Below, piece after piece: positions 1 to 5,813 of a stretch of DNA of 5,813 nucleotides. The notes beneath the pieces are model-generated. The model saw only the letters and a list, made by a program, of their open reading frames with translations, was not told the origin of the DNA and made no database searches. Made by a program: the position numbers and the translations under genes. Each line of letters begins with the position of its first letter. Position 1 is the first letter of the stretch. Source of the DNA: Candidatus Alcyoniella australis (GTDB taxonomy: Bacteria > Lernaellota > Lernaellaia > JAVCCG01 > Alcyoniellaceae); contig JAVCCG010000155.1 in the NCBI GenBank assembly GCA_030765605.1, positions 1 to 5,813 on the forward strand. The letters are read 5' to 3'.

Positions 1-251
1 AACTTGCGCGACAGGGGAAAGCAGTATATGAACATCGCATGGAGCCAAATCGCGATTACCAAGTAATATCAACGACTATACGCGCTTCGTAACCTATACG
101 AAATCTGTGATTTGAAATCCCAATTCGTATGCAACACCTCACGTAAAGTATCATGGAATAGCCCACAAGTGCTTGATTAGCAGCAATAATCATCGATTTT
201 TGGGCAAATCACAGATGTAAAGTAATTTCTTACTAAAATGCCCTACCCGCC
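1..251. other. AT-rich non-coding left flank containing one arm of the terminal inverted repeat
   Basis: No convincing gene is visible here. The stretch is clearly more AT-rich than the genes to its right. Positions 25-134 form the left arm of the long inverted repeat. Positions 205-216 repeat twelve bases of that arm (103-114) in inverted orientation. A small hairpin, AGTAA (221-225) and TTACT (230-234) around a 4-base loop, lies just before the first reading frame. Positions 1-24 lie outside the repeat as far as can be seen, because the other arm runs off the window at the equivalent point. Confidence 0.7.
25..134 (+). repeat. Left arm of a 110-base inverted repeat
   Basis: Positions 25-134 are the reverse complement of 5704-5813. 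Paired positions sum to 5838. I find one mismatch, T at 128 against the complement of G at 5710. Similarity stops being exact at 135. The arm holds several dyads. ATTAC (55-59) and GTAAT (63-67) flank a 3-base loop. ATACGAA (96-102) and TTCGTAT (124-130) enclose a second dyad, GATTT (109-113) and AAATC (115-119). The hexamer TATACG occurs at 77-82 and 95-100. No open frame of note crosses it. It could be one copy of a dispersed intergenic repeat, the edge of a mobile element, or a recombination substrate. The sequence does not decide between these. Confidence 0.93.
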
Positions 252-578
252 TTGAAAAAGCACATGATTTACGATCAGCGGCTTTTACCCGCAGCACCCC
301 GAATCGTCGTCATCGTCTCGGACTGGCAGGACAGCTTCAGCGCCGCCAAGCTTGAGGCACAGCCGCTGGAACCAAACGACTACCTACGCCATCCGGCGTT
401 CGACATGCTGCTGCCGCTGGCCGCCCTGGGCGGACCGATCGAACGCATCACTGCGCTGCTTAACCCGATGACCCAGCGTGGCGGCCAGGGGCTGATCGAC
501 CTGAAGTTCGAGCATGCGGCGCGCTACGGCCTGCTCGAGCTGAGTCATGCGCCGCGCAATGGCCCAGCGTACGCGTGA
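252..578 (+). pseudogene. Orphan C-terminal fragment, possibly of a Gfo/Idh/MocA-type oxidoreductase
   Basis: The frame gives at most 108 residues from a TTG at 252, or 104 from an ATG at 264. Neither start has a recognisable ribosome binding site, and the frame is open only back to a stop at 234-236. The composition is typical coding sequence, and it reads like the interior and end of a larger protein. Hydrophobic and charged stretches such as HPAFDMLLPLAALGG, GPIERITALLNP and FEHAARYGLLELSHAP resemble the C-terminal sheet domain of Gfo/Idh/MocA oxidoreductases. In that domain a helix with 'H..D.l..l.G' is followed by strands rich in 'f.nG..g.le.s'. The N-terminal NAD-binding Rossmann domain, with its GxGxxG motif, is absent. 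The AT-rich repeat flank ends directly upstream, so the gene was probably truncated there. The family assignment is by eye and weak. It could also be an unrelated small hypothetical protein. Confidence 0.4.
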
Positions 579-740
579 GCCCGCGCTGCGCCATGCGAGC
601 CGCCCAAAGCCCGGGCGTGCTTGCAATCGATCCTGTCAAACGACGCTGACGGTTTCGCTTTAAACCGAATATTGTTTAAGATGCGTTTCTCGTACCTCGG
701 ACAAGAACAAGTCCTTTAAAAAACCACGACAGGAAAACCG
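579..740. other. Intergenic region with three weak stem-loops
   Basis: No gene is visible. Three potential hairpins are present. CGCCC (601-605) pairs with GGGCG (613-617). Positions 633-638 pair with 647-652, including one T-G pair, and are followed by a T-rich stretch (653-661). TTAAAC (660-665) pairs with GTTTAA (674-679) around an 8-base loop. The second is the most terminator-like, but its T tract is interrupted. I see no promoter with a good pair of hexamers for the downstream gene. Confidence 0.45.
731..734 (+). promoter_or_regulatory. Ribosome binding site (AGGA) fixing a GTG start at 741
   Basis: AGGA is followed by a 6-base spacer and then GTG. No in-frame ATG lies nearby (the ATG at 757 is in another frame), so this site decides the GTG start of the cyclotransferase-like gene. 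Confidence 0.65.
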
Positions 741-1148
741 GTGCATATACCAATATATGACCCATTGAATCAAGCGTTGTATTTCGTAATTCCCGGTCAA
801 GAGCAATCGAATCCGTTGCGGGGCGAACGCCACGTTTTCGTCTGCGGTGCATTGCAAAACCCGGAAAAGCTCGGCGCGCTGTTGGGCCGATCCCCGGCAT
901 TCGCGCCCGCCGTTGTTAAGGGCTATCAGCGCGGCAGCGAAACGATCGGCGGCGTTGACGTGGCGTTCATGCTGCCCTCGACCGATCCCGTGGCCGTGCT
1001 CACCGGCGTGGTCTGGCTCGATCTGTCCGAGCAAGACATTGAGCTGATCGAGGGCCTGGAACTGGCCGGAGATCTGCGGAAACGGATCGTGATCGAAGCT
1101 GTCTGCGGCGAGCTGCGGCTCAAGGCGTTTACCTACGTCAAAGCCTGA
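741..1148 (+). CDS. Gamma-glutamylcyclotransferase-fold (AIG2/GGCT-like) protein
   Basis: This is a complete 135-residue protein with a GTG start, and its length is normal for the family. After about 30 N-terminal residues comes HVFVCGALQNP (31-41), the place where the family has its 'vFVYGtL..P' substrate loop. It is followed by the expected pattern: LGRSPAFAPAVVKGYQR (48-64), then LTGVVWLDLSEQDIELIEGLE (split across 87-107), RIVIEA (115-120) and FTYVKA at the end. Glu107 in 'GLE' sits where the family's catalytic acid/base Glu is usually found. Known members release 5-oxoproline from gamma-glutamyl amines or peptides in the cytosol, but many AIG2-like proteins have no assigned substrate. 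Oddities are Cys-Gly where the family usually has Tyr-Gly at the loop, and an N-terminal extension. The damaged SGNH hydrolase begins 12 bases after its stop and may have been co-transcribed. The fold assignment is fairly firm; the exact activity is not. Confidence 0.72.
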   Translation: MHIPIYDPLNQALYFVIPGQEQSNPLRGERHVFVCGALQNPEKLGALLGRSPAFAPAVVKGYQRGSETIGGVDVAFMLPSTDPVAVLTGVVWLDLSEQDIELIEGLELAGDLRKRIVIEAVCGELRLKAFTYVKA

Positions 1149-1151
1149 GGA
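1147..1151 (+). promoter_or_regulatory. Possible ribosome binding site (GAGGA) for the SGNH hydrolase, overlapping the upstream stop codon
   Basis: GAGGA overlaps the TGA that ends the cyclotransferase gene (1146-1148) and lies 8 bases before a TTG at 1160. The arrangement suggests translational coupling of the two genes. It also supports 1160 as the original start of the now frameshifted hydrolase. Confidence 0.45.
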
Positions 1152-1159
1152 TCGTTGAC

Positions 1160-1811
1160 TTGCACACCTTCCTGGAAAACCTGATCCGCCTGCGTCGGCG
1201 ACTCCTCGACCTTCGGGCTGGGTTCGTTCGACCACCGTACGATCTATCCGGCGCTGCTCGAACGCCTGCTCAGATTAAAATACGGCCCCGCGTCCGCCCA
1301 GGTGATCAACGCCGGCGTCCCAGGATATACATCGTATCAGGCGCTGCGCATGCTCGAAGATGTGGTGCTGCCTTGTTCACCGGACATCGTCTTCATCTAC
1401 GTGGGCAATAACGACTCGATCGGCCATTACGACAGTGAGAGCAGCGTCAAGCTGAACACCCGGCTGTTGCGTACCCGCCTGGTCCTGCGCCACATGGCCC
1501 TCTACCGGCTGCTGCGGCTGATGGTCGTCAGCGACCCGGTGCAGACCGTGGCTCAATCGGTCGACCTAAATCCGGCAGGACGCGCCTCCTCGCAGATGAA
1601 CGATTTATTGCGAGACATCGCGCTGGATCAGGATGTGCCGCTGATCGATATTGCCAGGCTGTTCCGCGCAAAGGACAGCGATCAGCGCGGGCTGGTCAGC
1701 ACGACCTACTTCGCCGACTTCGTCCATCCCAATTCCAAGGGACATGCACTGATCGCCAAAGAGCTATTTTATACCTCTATCAAGTTGAGCGGCCACAGGT
1801 TGCGGCGATAG
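1160..1811 (+). pseudogene. SGNH/GDSL-family hydrolase, frameshifted near the N-terminus and probably internally deleted
   Basis: The hallmarks of an SGNH hydrolase can be read in the frame open from 1185 to 1811. Block I is VGDSSTFG, with the nucleophile Ser codon at 1203-1205. Block II is VINAGVPGYTSYQ, from 1302. Block III is GNND (1404-1415). Block V is DFVH, with Asp at 1716-1718 and His at 1725-1727. This frame has no ATG, GTG or TTG before block II and meets a stop at 1182-1184. The preceding TTG frame (1160) reads LHTFLENLIR and joins block I in register if one base is removed near 1188-1192, giving about 216 residues. The GTG at 1302 would give 169 residues but would lose the catalytic Ser. 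The stretch between blocks III and V is also short: it lacks the usual 'GARVVLLT.P' strand and helix. Relatives are esterases or acyl-transfer enzymes acting on lipids or glycans. This copy is probably inactive, unless the frameshift is a sequencing error. Confidence 0.75.
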
Positions 1812-1825
1812 GCAAAGCCTCAGTC

Positions 1826-1840
1826 CGGCTAAGCCGTTTT
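1826..1840 (+). terminator. Weak hairpin plus T4 between convergent genes
   Basis: CGGC (1826-1829) and GCCG (1833-1836) form a 4-base-pair stem around TAA, followed by TTTT (1837-1840). It lies in the convergent gap after the SGNH stop and overlaps the last codons of the MFS gene on the other strand. The position fits a terminator, but the stem is very short, so support is slight. Confidence 0.25.
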
Positions 1841-3001
1841 CTGCTCGGGCAGACGTGCAACGGCCACACAGAGCAGCACCAGAGAAGCCAGGGAGGCCAG
1901 CGGAAAAACAATCAGTGAAATACTAAATGACGCGAGGGAACTGATCACCCCGATCAATAACGGCAACAGTATTCCGCCACCCGGGACCGAGGCTTTAACA
2001 AGGGCCATCACTGTTCCTGGGTCGTCGCACCAGCGCAAACCAGCCAGGCAAAAGATCAGCGGGCTGACCGCGCTGATCGCCAGTCCGCAGAGGAACACCG
2101 CGACCAACGTCAGCCTTCCAAGGTCGACGAAATAGAGCACTCCGAACGCCACGACGCAGGCGGCCAGCGCAACCTGTAGATAGCGCACAATCATTGACTC
2201 GCGTATCAATACGCCCGAGAGCAGCCTGCCCGCCAAGATTCCGGCGAGAAAAATCACCAGACCGATCTTGGCCATCTGGATCGAGCTACCACGCAGATCA
2301 ACGAGAAAACTGGTCAGCACGCCCACGGTGCCCAGCTCGACTCCCGCCGCTGGAACGGTGGCCAGGAACAACAGCAACAGCCCCCGCCTATGCGTAATCG
2401 AGGGATAGCCCCTGCGAAGATCGGGGCTGCGCGCAGGACGCGGGCGCTGTCGCGCCAGCAGGTAGAACACGGCCAATACCGCCACCGATACGCCTGCCTG
2501 AACCATCGACCTGCGCCAGTCCAGTTGCAGAAAGATCAGGTAGAGCGCAATGGCGGCCATACCAAAGGTGATGAAAAAGTGGTTGACCGCGATGTATCGG
2601 CTTGGGTTGCGGCGATGCACGTCGAGCAACAGCGCGTCGGATACACCCTCGTAGGTCCCCGCTCCCAGGCCGACGAAAACAATCACGATCAGGTTGACCC
2701 AGAAAATCGGCGATAGATAAAACAGACTGAACGCTGCTGAGAGCAGCAGGCTGCCCACGAACAGCAAGCGGGTTTTACTGTACCGATCCGCCATCCAGCC
2801 GCTGACCAGCACGGCCACGAGAAAGCCCAGATACTTGGTGGAGATCAACCAGCCGATCTGGCTGGGCGACAACCCCACGTCCTTGGCCGCAGCCCCGACG
2901 ATCGCCAATGCCACGCCGATGAAAAACATCGAGGCGAACGAGGCACCGGTCAGCGGCAGCGAGCCGCCCAGGAAATTGCGTCGCTCGCCGTCTGGGTTCA
3001 T
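1829..3001 (-). CDS. Major facilitator superfamily (MFS) transporter, 12 membrane segments
   Basis: The protein is 390 residues from the ATG at 3001. An upstream TTG (3085) would add 28 residues and overlap the cyclase gene by about 50 bases, so the ATG is preferred, although no strong ribosome binding site precedes it. Twelve hydrophobic segments can be seen at roughly 17-39, 49-70, 79-97, 99-123, 141-158, 166-183, 207-233, 243-265, 274-292, 297-321, 332-356 and 359-383. GWMADRYSKTR (68-78), between segments 2 and 3, is the MFS motif A pattern (GxxaDRxxxxR). FVGLGAGTYEGVSDALL (109-125) in segment 4 resembles the glycine-rich helix of sugar-type MFS carriers. A basic loop at about 183-207 separates the halves. 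It probably moves a small solute across the inner membrane. It follows the cyclase-family hydrolase by 34 bases on the same strand, so substrate or product transport for that enzyme is a reasonable inference. The substrate is unknown. Confidence 0.88.
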   Translation of the reverse strand: MNPDGERRNFLGGSLPLTGASFASMFFIGVALAIVGAAAKDVGLSPSQIGWLISTKYLGFLVAVLVSGWMADRYSKTRLLFVGSLLLSAAFSLFYLSPIFWVNLIVIVFVGLGAGTYEGVSDALLLDVHRRNPSRYIAVNHFFITFGMAAIALYLIFLQLDWRRSMVQAGVSVAVLAVFYLLARQRPRPARSPDLRRGYPSITHRRGLLLLFLATVPAAGVELGTVGVLTSFLVDLRGSSIQMAKIGLVIFLAGILAGRLLSGVLIRESMIVRYLQVALAACVVAFGVLYFVDLGRLTLVAVFLCGLAISAVSPLIFCLAGLRWCDDPGTVMALVKASVPGGGILLPLLIGVISSLASFSISLIVFPLASLASLVLLCVAVARLPEQKTA

Positions 3002-3035
3002 GACACGCGGTTTATCCGACCGCGCCGCAGCCCGA

Positions 3036-3689
3036 TCATGGCACAGGTCGCAGCAGCACCCTGGCGGGCGCACCGTCTGCGCCAACGATCTTCAGCGGCA
3101 GGCAGATCATCTCGTACTCGCCCTGCGTAACGCGCGACAGGTCGAGCCCCTCGATCAGCCAAATCCCCGCGCCGAGCAGCGCCAGGTGGGTCGGGGAATC
3201 CTCGCAATCGAAACCCTCCACCGACAGGTAGTCGATTCCCACCAGCCTTACTTCCGTTGCCGCCAGCATGCGCGCCGCGGAATCGGATATGTAGACGTAA
3301 TCGGTGGCGAACGAGTCGCGTTGCCACAGTTGATCGCCGCCCCGAGTCTTGAACAGTAGCCGCTCGCCTTTGCGCACCCCGTGCTTTCTTAGCTCCTCGA
3401 CCTTGATCGATTCGGTGTCCGCAATCTCGATCACGCGGGCCCTGCCGATCAGCACGTCCAGCGGCGCCTGATCCACCGATTGGCCGTCGCGGATGAAGTG
3501 TCGCGGCGCGTCCATATGGGTCGCGCTGTGGGCGCTGATCTGGATCTGCGTAAGATTCAGCCGGTCACCCTTGTCCATGTCCAAAACCTTGCTGATCTTG
3601 ACCAATGGATCGCCGGGCCAGCTGGGCATCTTGTCACGCAGACCGACGGTTACGTCGATCCATCCGCTGCTGTCGATCGTTGTCGCCAT
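3036..3689 (-). CDS. Cyclase-family (PF04199-type) metal-dependent hydrolase, kynurenine formamidase-like
   Basis: The protein is 217 residues from the ATG at 3689, chosen because GGAGAG lies 6 bases upstream; the longer frame, with 47 more residues, would run into aspS. Family features in order are WPGDP (24-28), HSATHMDAPRHF (54-65), matching HxxxHxDAPxHF, GIDYLSVEGF (151-160), then His168 and Glu180 in IEGLDLSRVTQGEYEMICLPLK (split over 179-200), and DGAPAR (205-210). By analogy with kynurenine formamidase KynB, His54, His58, Asp60, His168 and Glu180 would bind the metals and His64 would act in catalysis. The family includes KynB, isatin hydrolase and other amide or lactone hydrolases, so the substrate stays open. 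No other kynurenine-pathway gene lies nearby. The second motif residue is Ala (SATH) where GTH is usual. The gene heads a two-gene operon with the MFS transporter and is divergent from aspS. Confidence 0.85.
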   Translation of the reverse strand: MATTIDSSGWIDVTVGLRDKMPSWPGDPLVKISKVLDMDKGDRLNLTQIQISAHSATHMDAPRHFIRDGQSVDQAPLDVLIGRARVIEIADTESIKVEELRKHGVRKGERLLFKTRGGDQLWQRDSFATDYVYISDSAARMLAATEVRLVGIDYLSVEGFDCEDSPTHLALLGAGIWLIEGLDLSRVTQGEYEMICLPLKIVGADGAPARVLLRPVP

Positions 3690-3719
3690 CGCCTGCTCTC
3701 CGCAATTCTGTTGCGGGCT

Positions 3720-3725
3720 AGTATA
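3720..3725 (-). promoter_or_regulatory. Candidate -10 element (TATACT) of the cyclase/MFS operon
   Basis: TATACT matches five of six bases of the sigma-70 -10 consensus and lies about 30 bases upstream of the cyclase ATG. TTGCAA sits 19 bases further upstream as a poor -35. Confidence 0.4.
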
Positions 3726-3791
3726 CATCCGCGGTCCGCTGATGTTGCAAAACAGGCTGTCGTGTCGTATGAGTGCTGTTTTTAAAGGAAC

Positions 3792-3797
3792 GGAGAG
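3792..3797 (+). promoter_or_regulatory. Ribosome binding site (GGAGAG) fixing the aspS start at 3803
   Basis: GGAGAG is followed by five bases and ATG. This favours the ATG at 3803 over the in-frame GTG at 3773, which would add ten residues with no family match and has no comparable site. Confidence 0.75.
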
Positions 3798-3802
3798 AAT
3801 CG

Positions 3803-5575
3803 ATGGGCGGCGCAACGGTTTATCGCACATGTTGGATCTCCGAGGCGGATGCCTCGGCTGTGGACAGCGAGCTGCGGCTCGCGGGCTGGATCGAGACCTA
3901 CCGTGATCACGGAGGATTGGTCTTTTTTCATTTACGCGATGGCTCGGGCCGCATCCAGTGCGTGGCCGACCCCGAGCTGCTTACGCCGCAGGAATGGCAG
4001 CAGGCCAGCTCCCTGCGCGCCGAATGGGTCGTGGCGTTCCGCGGCAAGCTGCGCCGGCGTCCGGCGGGCACCGAGCGCACCAGCCTGGACAACAAGGAGA
4101 TCGAGCTGAGCATCGAGGGCCTGGATGTGCTCTCGCGCTCGCGGGCGCTGCCGTTCAAACTCAGCGATACCGATTCGCTTTCCGAGGAAGTGCGGATGGC
4201 GTTTCGTTACCTCGATCTGCGCAACGAGCGGATGCAGCGCAACCTGCGTCTGCGCTCCAAGTTGATTAAATCCCTGCGCGACGGGCTCGATTCCCGCGAT
4301 TTCTGCGAGGTCGAAACGCCGATCCTGGGCAAGAGCACGCCCGAGGGCGCGCGCGACTACCTGGTGCCCAGCCGGATCCACCCGCGCTCGTACTACGCCC
4401 TGCCCCAGTCGCCGCAACTGTTCAAGCAACTGCTGATGATCGGCGGGATTGAACGCTATTTCCAGGTAGCGCGCTGCTTTCGCGACGAGGATCTGCGCGC
4501 CAACCGTCAGCCCGAATTCACTCAGCTTGACATGGAGTTAAGCTTTGTCGACGAGTCGGACGTGATGAACCTCACCGAGTCGTTGGTGCGCGAGAGCATG
4601 GTGCAGGTCGGGCAGCCCGATCCGGGCGAGTTTCCGCGCCTGAGCTACGCCGAGGCCATCGACCGCTTTGGCAGCGACAAGCCCGACGTGTCCCCTGGCA
4701 TGGAACTAATTGAGATCACAGAGGCATTGCGCAACACCGAATTCAAGATCTTTCGCAAGCTGATCGACGAGGGCGGCGCTGTGATGGCGATCCGCGTGCC
4801 CTCCGAGCACACGCTGTCTAAAAAGCAGATCGAGTTGATCCGCGATTATGCCGAAGATGCGGGTGCATCGGCGCCGGCCTGGGGTCACGTACGCGAAGGT
4901 AAGTTCGTGTCACAGCTGGCAAAATACTTCTCGGACGAGGAGCGCGCGGACATGGTCCGGCTGCTCGAGCCGGGGACCGACGGCGACCTGATACTGTTCC
5001 AGGCCGGGTCCGACCCGCTGCAAGTCAGACGCAACCTCGGCGAGATTAGGCTGATCGTGGCTGACCTGCTTGGGCTACGTAACCCCAAGCGACCGCTGCA
5101 CTTTTGCTGGATCACCCACTTTCCGCTGCTCGAGTTCGACAGTGCCCGCACACGCTTCAAGGCGATGCACCATCCCTTTACCCAACCCGACGACTGCGCG
5201 GCGCTAAATAGCGATGATCACGAGGCTTTACTGTCGATCAGCGCACGGTCCTACGATCTGGTGCTCAACGGCGAGGAGATCGGCGGCGGTTCGATCCGCA
5301 TCCACGACCCGTTGGTCCAGCGGCGCATATTCGAGGTGCTGAGCATCCCGGACGAGGAAGTGTCTAAAAAGTTTGGGTTTTTCCTACGCGCGCTGGAATA
5401 CGGCGCACCGCCACACGGCGGCATCGCCCTGGGCCTGGACCGTCTGGCGAGCATCATCGCCGGGGAGGATTCAATCCGCGACGTGATCGCCTTCCCCAAG
5501 ACCCAGAGCGCCTCGTGCCCGCTGACCGGCGCACCCACACCCGTGACCGGCCGCCGCGACCTTGGGATTTTCTAG
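3803..5575 (+). CDS. aspS: Aspartyl-tRNA synthetase, bacterial type, with non-discriminating signature
   Basis: This is a complete class II synthetase of 590 residues, the usual bacterial length, which charges tRNA with aspartate in the cytosol. The N-terminal OB-fold anticodon domain covers about 1-115, with RDHGGLVFFHLRDGSG at 34-49. Catalytic features are FCEVETPILGKSTPEGARDY (167-186; motif 1 end and flipping loop), QSPQLFKQLL (202-211), motif 2 FRDEDLRANRQPEFTQLD (226-243, ATP-binding Arg227), EEIGGGSIRIHD (491-502) and motif 3 GIALGLDRL (540-548, Arg547). The GAD insertion lies at about 285-430, and the C-terminus has the standard AFPKTQ...TGAP segment. His36 in DHGG and Gly89 in RPAGT match residues linked to non-discriminating AspRS, which also charges tRNA-Asn. 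Discriminating enzymes usually have Leu and Lys there. The gene stands alone, divergent from the cyclase operon. A weak terminator follows. Confidence 0.97.
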   Translation: MGGATVYRTCWISEADASAVDSELRLAGWIETYRDHGGLVFFHLRDGSGRIQCVADPELLTPQEWQQASSLRAEWVVAFRGKLRRRPAGTERTSLDNKEIELSIEGLDVLSRSRALPFKLSDTDSLSEEVRMAFRYLDLRNERMQRNLRLRSKLIKSLRDGLDSRDFCEVETPILGKSTPEGARDYLVPSRIHPRSYYALPQSPQLFKQLLMIGGIERYFQVARCFRDEDLRANRQPEFTQLDMELSFVDESDVMNLTESLVRESMVQVGQPDPGEFPRLSYAEAIDRFGSDKPDVSPGMELIEITEALRNTEFKIFRKLIDEGGAVMAIRVPSEHTLSKKQIELIRDYAEDAGASAPAWGHVREGKFVSQLAKYFSDEERADMVRLLEPGTDGDLILFQAGSDPLQVRRNLGEIRLIVADLLGLRNPKRPLHFCWITHFPLLEFDSARTRFKAMHHPFTQPDDCAALNSDDHEALLSISARSYDLVLNGEEIGGGSIRIHDPLVQRRIFEVLSIPDEEVSKKFGFFLRALEYGAPPHGGIALGLDRLASIIAGEDSIRDVIAFPKTQSASCPLTGAPTPVTGRRDLGIF

Positions 5576-5703
5576 CACGATTTCCAGTAGTATACGCCCA
5601 AAGTTAAAGTAGCGCCTCAAGTGCGTTTTTTTGCGGTTTTACCCGATATTTCCGCTATTAATCAGATACTTAACAACGAGCCCTTAGTAAAATACTTTAG
5701 GAC
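5576..5703. other. AT-rich non-coding region after aspS
   Basis: No gene is visible. It holds a weak terminator-like structure (5612-5632) and then AT-rich sequence leading into the right repeat arm. Read in reverse complement, its distal part shows patches shared with the region just inside the left arm, namely TAAAGTAT and TGATTA..AGC. The repeat family may therefore extend inward in diverged form. Confidence 0.6.
5612..5632 (+). terminator. Weak terminator candidate downstream of aspS
   Basis: GCGC (5612-5615) pairs with GTGC (5621-5624), including one G-T pair, around a 5-base loop. One G and then seven T (5626-5632) follow. The T tract and position fit an intrinsic terminator for aspS, but the stem is only four pairs. 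Confidence 0.4.
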
Positions 5704-5813
5704 TTGCATGCGAATTGGGATTTCAAATCACAGATTTCGTATAGGTTACGAAGCGCGTATAGTCGTTGATATTACTTGGTAATCGCGATTTGGCTCCATG
5801 CGATGTTCATATA
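5704..5813 (-). repeat. Right arm of the 110-base inverted repeat, reaching the window edge
   Basis: This is the reverse complement of 25-134 with one mismatch (G at 5710 against T at 128). That difference breaks one pair of the 7-base outer dyad seen in the left arm. The arm runs to the last base of the window, so its outer boundary is not known and the repeat may be longer than 110 bases. Confidence 0.93.

Follow-up and report, generated by a model that had tools for sequence, protein, structure and literature searches.

An inverted repeat around a contig of Candidatus Alcyoniella australis very probably reflects two copies of a dispersed non-coding element at host gene ends

The inverted repeat and the ends of the contig

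A contig of the Candidatus Alcyoniella australis draft genome is enclosed by a near-perfect inverted repeat, which raises the question whether the repeat delimits a genetic unit or marks where the assembly stopped. The initial annotation had offered four explanations: a dispersed intergenic repeat present here as two inverted copies, a composite or non-autonomous mobile unit with the arms as its ends, a segment inverting by recombination between the arms, and an assembly that simply ended the contig inside a repeat. It had also proposed a search of the arm against the source assembly and related genomes. The window, i.e. the whole stretch of DNA analysed, is the complete 5,813-bp contig C155 of a genome of 157 contigs and 4.29 Mb, and has the following features.

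1-260, plus strand: left copy of the element, 3′ part only, with a class A tail (genome search, alignment and identity with the end of contig C95)
25-145, plus strand: left arm of the inverted repeat (repeat comparison)
285-320, minus strand: C-terminal remnant of a surface-protein gene (RDDDDDSGCCG, then stop) converging on the left copy (the copies on C17 and C93 also have such C-termini facing them)
1302-1811, plus strand: GDSL-type hydrolase gene, apparently without its N-terminal part (Pfam PF13472, matched from profile position 37)
1829-3085, minus strand: MFS transporter gene (Pfam PF07690)
3036-3830, minus strand: putative cyclase gene, longest ORF (Pfam PF04199; 3036-3689 by the gene caller), its true start probably lying further in
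3773-5575, plus strand: aspS (aspartyl-tRNA synthetase), a host gene with its 3′ end facing the right copy (Pfam PF00152, PF01336 and PF02938)
5580-5813, minus strand: right copy of the element, 3′ part only, with a class B tail, converging on aspS (alignment; last 127 bases common to C38)
5693-5813, minus strand: right arm of the inverted repeat (repeat comparison)

The 110-base repeat described at the outset was confirmed, as positions 25-134 differ from the reverse complement of 5704-5813 by a single mismatch in 110 nt (T against C at position 128), and its extended arms (25-145 and 5693-5813) agree over 121 nt with 5 mismatches (96%). Such symmetry is far beyond chance, the window and its own reverse complement having 168 20-mers in common versus 0 in 50 shuffles. 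C155 begins with exactly the 127 bases with which C95 ends, and the last 127 bases of C155 are the reverse complement of the first 127 of C38, beyond which C155 and C38 diverge. Exact 127-base overlaps of contig ends are the trace of a de Bruijn assembler run with k = 127 at an unresolved repeat, and both window ends are therefore assembly breaks; the right arm ends at the window edge because the contig ends there. The suspicion that the contig had stopped in a repeat thus proved correct at both ends. As the window is a complete contig, each arm shows only a part of a longer element. C95 probably holds the continuation of the left copy, its end and the start of C155 then being one copy, and the 5′ part of this copy with the promoter is probably to be sought there, beyond the contig edge. 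We consider it very probable that a dispersed non-coding element of ~550 nt is present here in two convergent copies, of which the arms are 3′ parts, and that the window ends where the assembler stalled. When an assembly breaks at dispersed repeats, contigs enclosed from end to end by an inverted repeat are to be expected, and such a geometry calls for caution.

The enclosed block has mostly 57-65% GC, which is the host composition, and, in agreement with the initial annotation, no transposase or recombinase gene was found in the window. The best named relatives of the encoded AspRS are only ~50% identical and come from mixed phyla.

A dispersed repeat family with exchange between copies

Searching the genome with the arms as query gave 18 matches, and a longer query gave 20 matches on 18 contigs, so that the proposal of a dispersed intergenic repeat with two copies in inverted orientation was upheld: multiple non-coding copies occupy unrelated intergenic sites. 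The search of related genomes turned out otherwise, as neither blastn nor the profile R1 detected a copy in six further genomes from the class and phylum. Phages and plasmids gave no match; neither did viral contigs with exact 19-22-mers, nor ~85,000 species genomes with one exact 22-mer, patterns that miss diverged relatives. The family therefore appears to be undescribed, judged mainly from these empty database searches and a brief literature search.

On alignment, the copies represent one element of ~550 nt. Its left ~430 nt have mostly 80-100% mean identity between copies (in 20-nt steps) except for an allele-rich stretch at 60-100, while mean identity falls to about 50-65% in the right ~110 nt, which form two broad tail classes, A and B; the left copy in the window carries A and the right copy B. 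Left-end alleles are found with both right-end classes. Recombination was analysed in ten full copies, which provide 73 informative columns with two states. The PHI-like permutation test gave p = 0.001, and the share of column pairs with all four combinations increased with distance, being 21% for columns within 10 nt of each other and about 60% for those more than 150 nt apart. Segments have been exchanged between copies; whole islands may have been exchanged along with them.

Individual copies show further peculiarities. The copy on C23 (L010) carries an unrelated block of ~45 nt inside the otherwise conserved core, some predicted pairing being kept across it. The copy on C95 (L044:7530-8000) is truncated on its right side by a palindromic, REP-like sequence of the GGGGACATCATACTTATT type, and this 135-nt sequence recurs at C78:125-259 (99%). 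The DDDDDSGCC C-terminus is common to unrelated surface proteins in the window (285-320) and at homologous spots on C17 and C93, and the similarity does not end at the stop codon but extends into the class A element, as though tail and element had been exchanged together.

Promoter sequence and non-coding nature of the element

The left end of the element consists of TTGACA, 17 or 18 bases and TGGTAAAAT, intact in all 13 copies that reach this end and pointing into the element. The -10 box TAAAAT is preceded by TGG, making an extended -10, and with 11 of 12 matches the whole is near-consensus. By sequence, the left end is thus a near-consensus promoter of the sigma-70 type, and a promoter of its own, one of the features looked for in a structured RNA, is predicted in 13 of 13 copies. 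The spacer between the boxes differs from copy to copy and the boxes are constant, which argues for selection on the promoter rather than simple recent copying.

No conserved reading frame was found in the element, as neither the start nor the length of the frames is constant from copy to copy, and a coding element or toxin peptide was accordingly ruled out. Rfam returned no match for the window or full copies, so a known RNA was rejected. Fold energies of single copies equal those of shuffles. RNAalifold proposed helices joining invariant blocks, with paired columns no more conserved than unpaired ones, and the five double changes all come from one copy, that on C23 with its replaced hairpin block. 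An internal inverted repeat of 24 nt is not due to chance (0 of 100 shuffles); an apparent covariation of its arms between two copies failed a permutation test across copies (p = 0.6). No terminator of the element was found in the copies. The predicted promoter supports a transcription unit, while a conserved RNA structure is unproven.

Genomic context of the copies

Between the right end of the element and the stop codon of its nearest neighbour there are 12-124 nt, and wherever a gene was called there (16 of 16 sites) it converges on the element (two-sided sign test, p about 3e-5). The left copy in the window is the seventeenth site; its called ORF (252-578, other strand) looks spurious, and it is the surface-protein remnant ending in RDDDDDSGCCG that faces the copy. 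The facing host genes are varied and include aspS and those for an aminotransferase, LpxC, two GcvH-like proteins, MarC, an SDR, a glycosyltransferase and proteases. On C109, a good intrinsic terminator of the host gene stands between its stop codon and the element, and C85 shows a comparable stem; few others were recognised in an automatic terminator scan.

The left flanks, which are known for 12 loci, are mostly AT-rich (about 38-50% GC versus ~60-68%), and the control contigs contained only about 5.4 kb of AT-rich DNA in about 284 kb readable, two short contigs reading as N being ignored. Candidate defence genes occur in the left flank at six of the 12 loci: a type III restriction-modification operon ends 48 nt before the copy on C14 (L047:2576-8370), IetAS begins 123 nt from the copy on C93 (L045:10378-13854), a bSEFIR protein is encoded 466 nt from the copy on C54, and NB-ARC-TPR proteins are encoded on C23, C17 and C142. 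Unknown genes lie beside the element on C95, C151, C80 and C85. PADLOC models were matched strongly by about nine of the 20 left-flank proteins scanned, the TPR matches being the weakest part of this count, and 145 control proteins gave scattered matches, mostly to generic models only. As the scanned proteins were chosen for lying in islands, the link with defence is an association and not a controlled test.

Several of these flanks have features of their own. The C14 operon has an extra BRO-N/PDC-S13-like protein between methylase and nuclease, and the IetAS genes on C93 form a complete-looking pair of AAA ATPase and subtilase in AT-rich DNA. The three NB-ARC-TPR proteins on C23, C17 and C142 (L043, L051 and L058) are related, and between each of them and the copy that follows lie ~150-nt tandem repeats of the GTCATTCTGAACGAAGTGAAGAATC type. 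At or near island edges on C85 and C151 (L046:4811-4916 and L049:5622-5725) are fragments like the 3′ end of tmRNA (GGTTCGACTCCGACCGCCTCCACC), for which ARAGORN and Rfam gave no report.

The position between accessory DNA and host gene ends is unusual and strict. We read the element as a lineage-specific repeat family, perhaps of RNA genes, that marks the boundaries of accessory DNA.

Possible role and alternative explanations

As to what the copies do, each might be a transcription unit for a non-coding RNA running towards the 3′ end of the convergent gene, a reading to which we give slightly less than even credence. Since the copies recombine with one another, they could also act as homology anchors, beside which accessory modules on the left would be gained, lost or reassorted next to the right-hand host genes; we hold this step tentatively. 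No exchanged pair of islands was seen among the 12 loci with a left flank. The combined proposal, that small defence and accessory islands throughout the genome use an undescribed multicopy non-coding RNA family at host gene ends as landing pads, anchoring recombination without a dedicated integrase, is speculative and on balance unlikely. If true, it would give a bacterium without island integrases a simple way to gather and reshuffle accessory genes.

A somewhat improbable alternative is a non-autonomous, MITE-like element whose target is the stretch immediately 3′ of host genes and which depends on a transposase encoded elsewhere, its promoter being incidental. The precise ends, many copies and constant orientation beside gene ends fit such an element, but no terminal inverted repeat is common to all copies (TGGTAAAATA is mirrored near the right side in class B only and not at the outer end), and no matching transposase was recognised in the genome, which as a whole has one Y1 transposase and two tyrosine recombinases, none of them beside a copy. 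The divergence of the promoter spacer with the boxes intact also speaks against an incidental promoter.

The element may instead be the conserved right terminus of a larger family of integrative islands inserting beside gene ends with variable defence cargo. This is unlikely, for although accessory DNA always lies on one side and a host gene on the other, the left flanks of the 12 loci revealed no left end that the islands have in common, and no island integrase was found.

That the 5.5-kb segment inverts through its arms by homologous or site-specific recombination, switching gene orientation, is very improbable: the arms are near-identical and inverted and the copies do recombine with one another, but the segment lacks a recombinase and holds aspS and other host genes, and with similar copies on 17 other contigs the pair is nothing special, so that nothing marks out 135-5703 for inversion as every pair of copies is an equal substrate. 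Equally remote is a composite or non-autonomous mobile unit with the arms as its ends and the five genes as its content, which the enclosing inverted repeats, the truncated GDSL gene and the surface-protein remnant might suggest; the block has host composition and contains aspS among other host genes, the arms belong to the interior of a longer element that continues outwards past the contig ends, the loci next to the copies elsewhere are unrelated, and no transposase or recombinase acting on the arms is encoded in the window, which left this part of the initial annotation without support.

Comparison with known systems

Placement just past gene ends or terminators and a link with gene capture are known from class C group II introns and integron cassette sites, and the element resembles both in these respects. 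The genome contains no reverse transcriptase, and with no Rfam match a group II intron or retron was rejected. An integrase beside an attC array was not found, the tyrosine recombinases at C85:76071 and C140:3123 both lying away from the copies.

REPs are short palindromes associated with a RAYT transposase. They resemble the element in being dispersed intergenic repeats, and the genome also has palindromes of the GGGGACACCATACTTAATT type and one Y1 transposase, at C95:13478. An origin from RAYT/IS605 was rejected, this transposase being the only one and a REP-like sequence instead interrupting a copy; because it truncates the copy at C95:72830, the REPs and the ~550-nt element are separate families.

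Long direct repeats, i.e. type I toxin-antitoxin loci (Ldr), are likewise multicopy, non-coding-looking units of about 500 nt with a promoter, but the element lacks the conserved small toxin frame of such loci.

Correia elements are dispersed intergenic repeats of bacteria, 100-150 nt long and with internal promoters. Like them, the element is short, non-coding, multicopy and intergenic, with a promoter sequence at one end. Unlike them, it measures about 550 nt, is without common terminal inverted repeats, and is strictly oriented towards convergent host genes with accessory or defence DNA on its other side.
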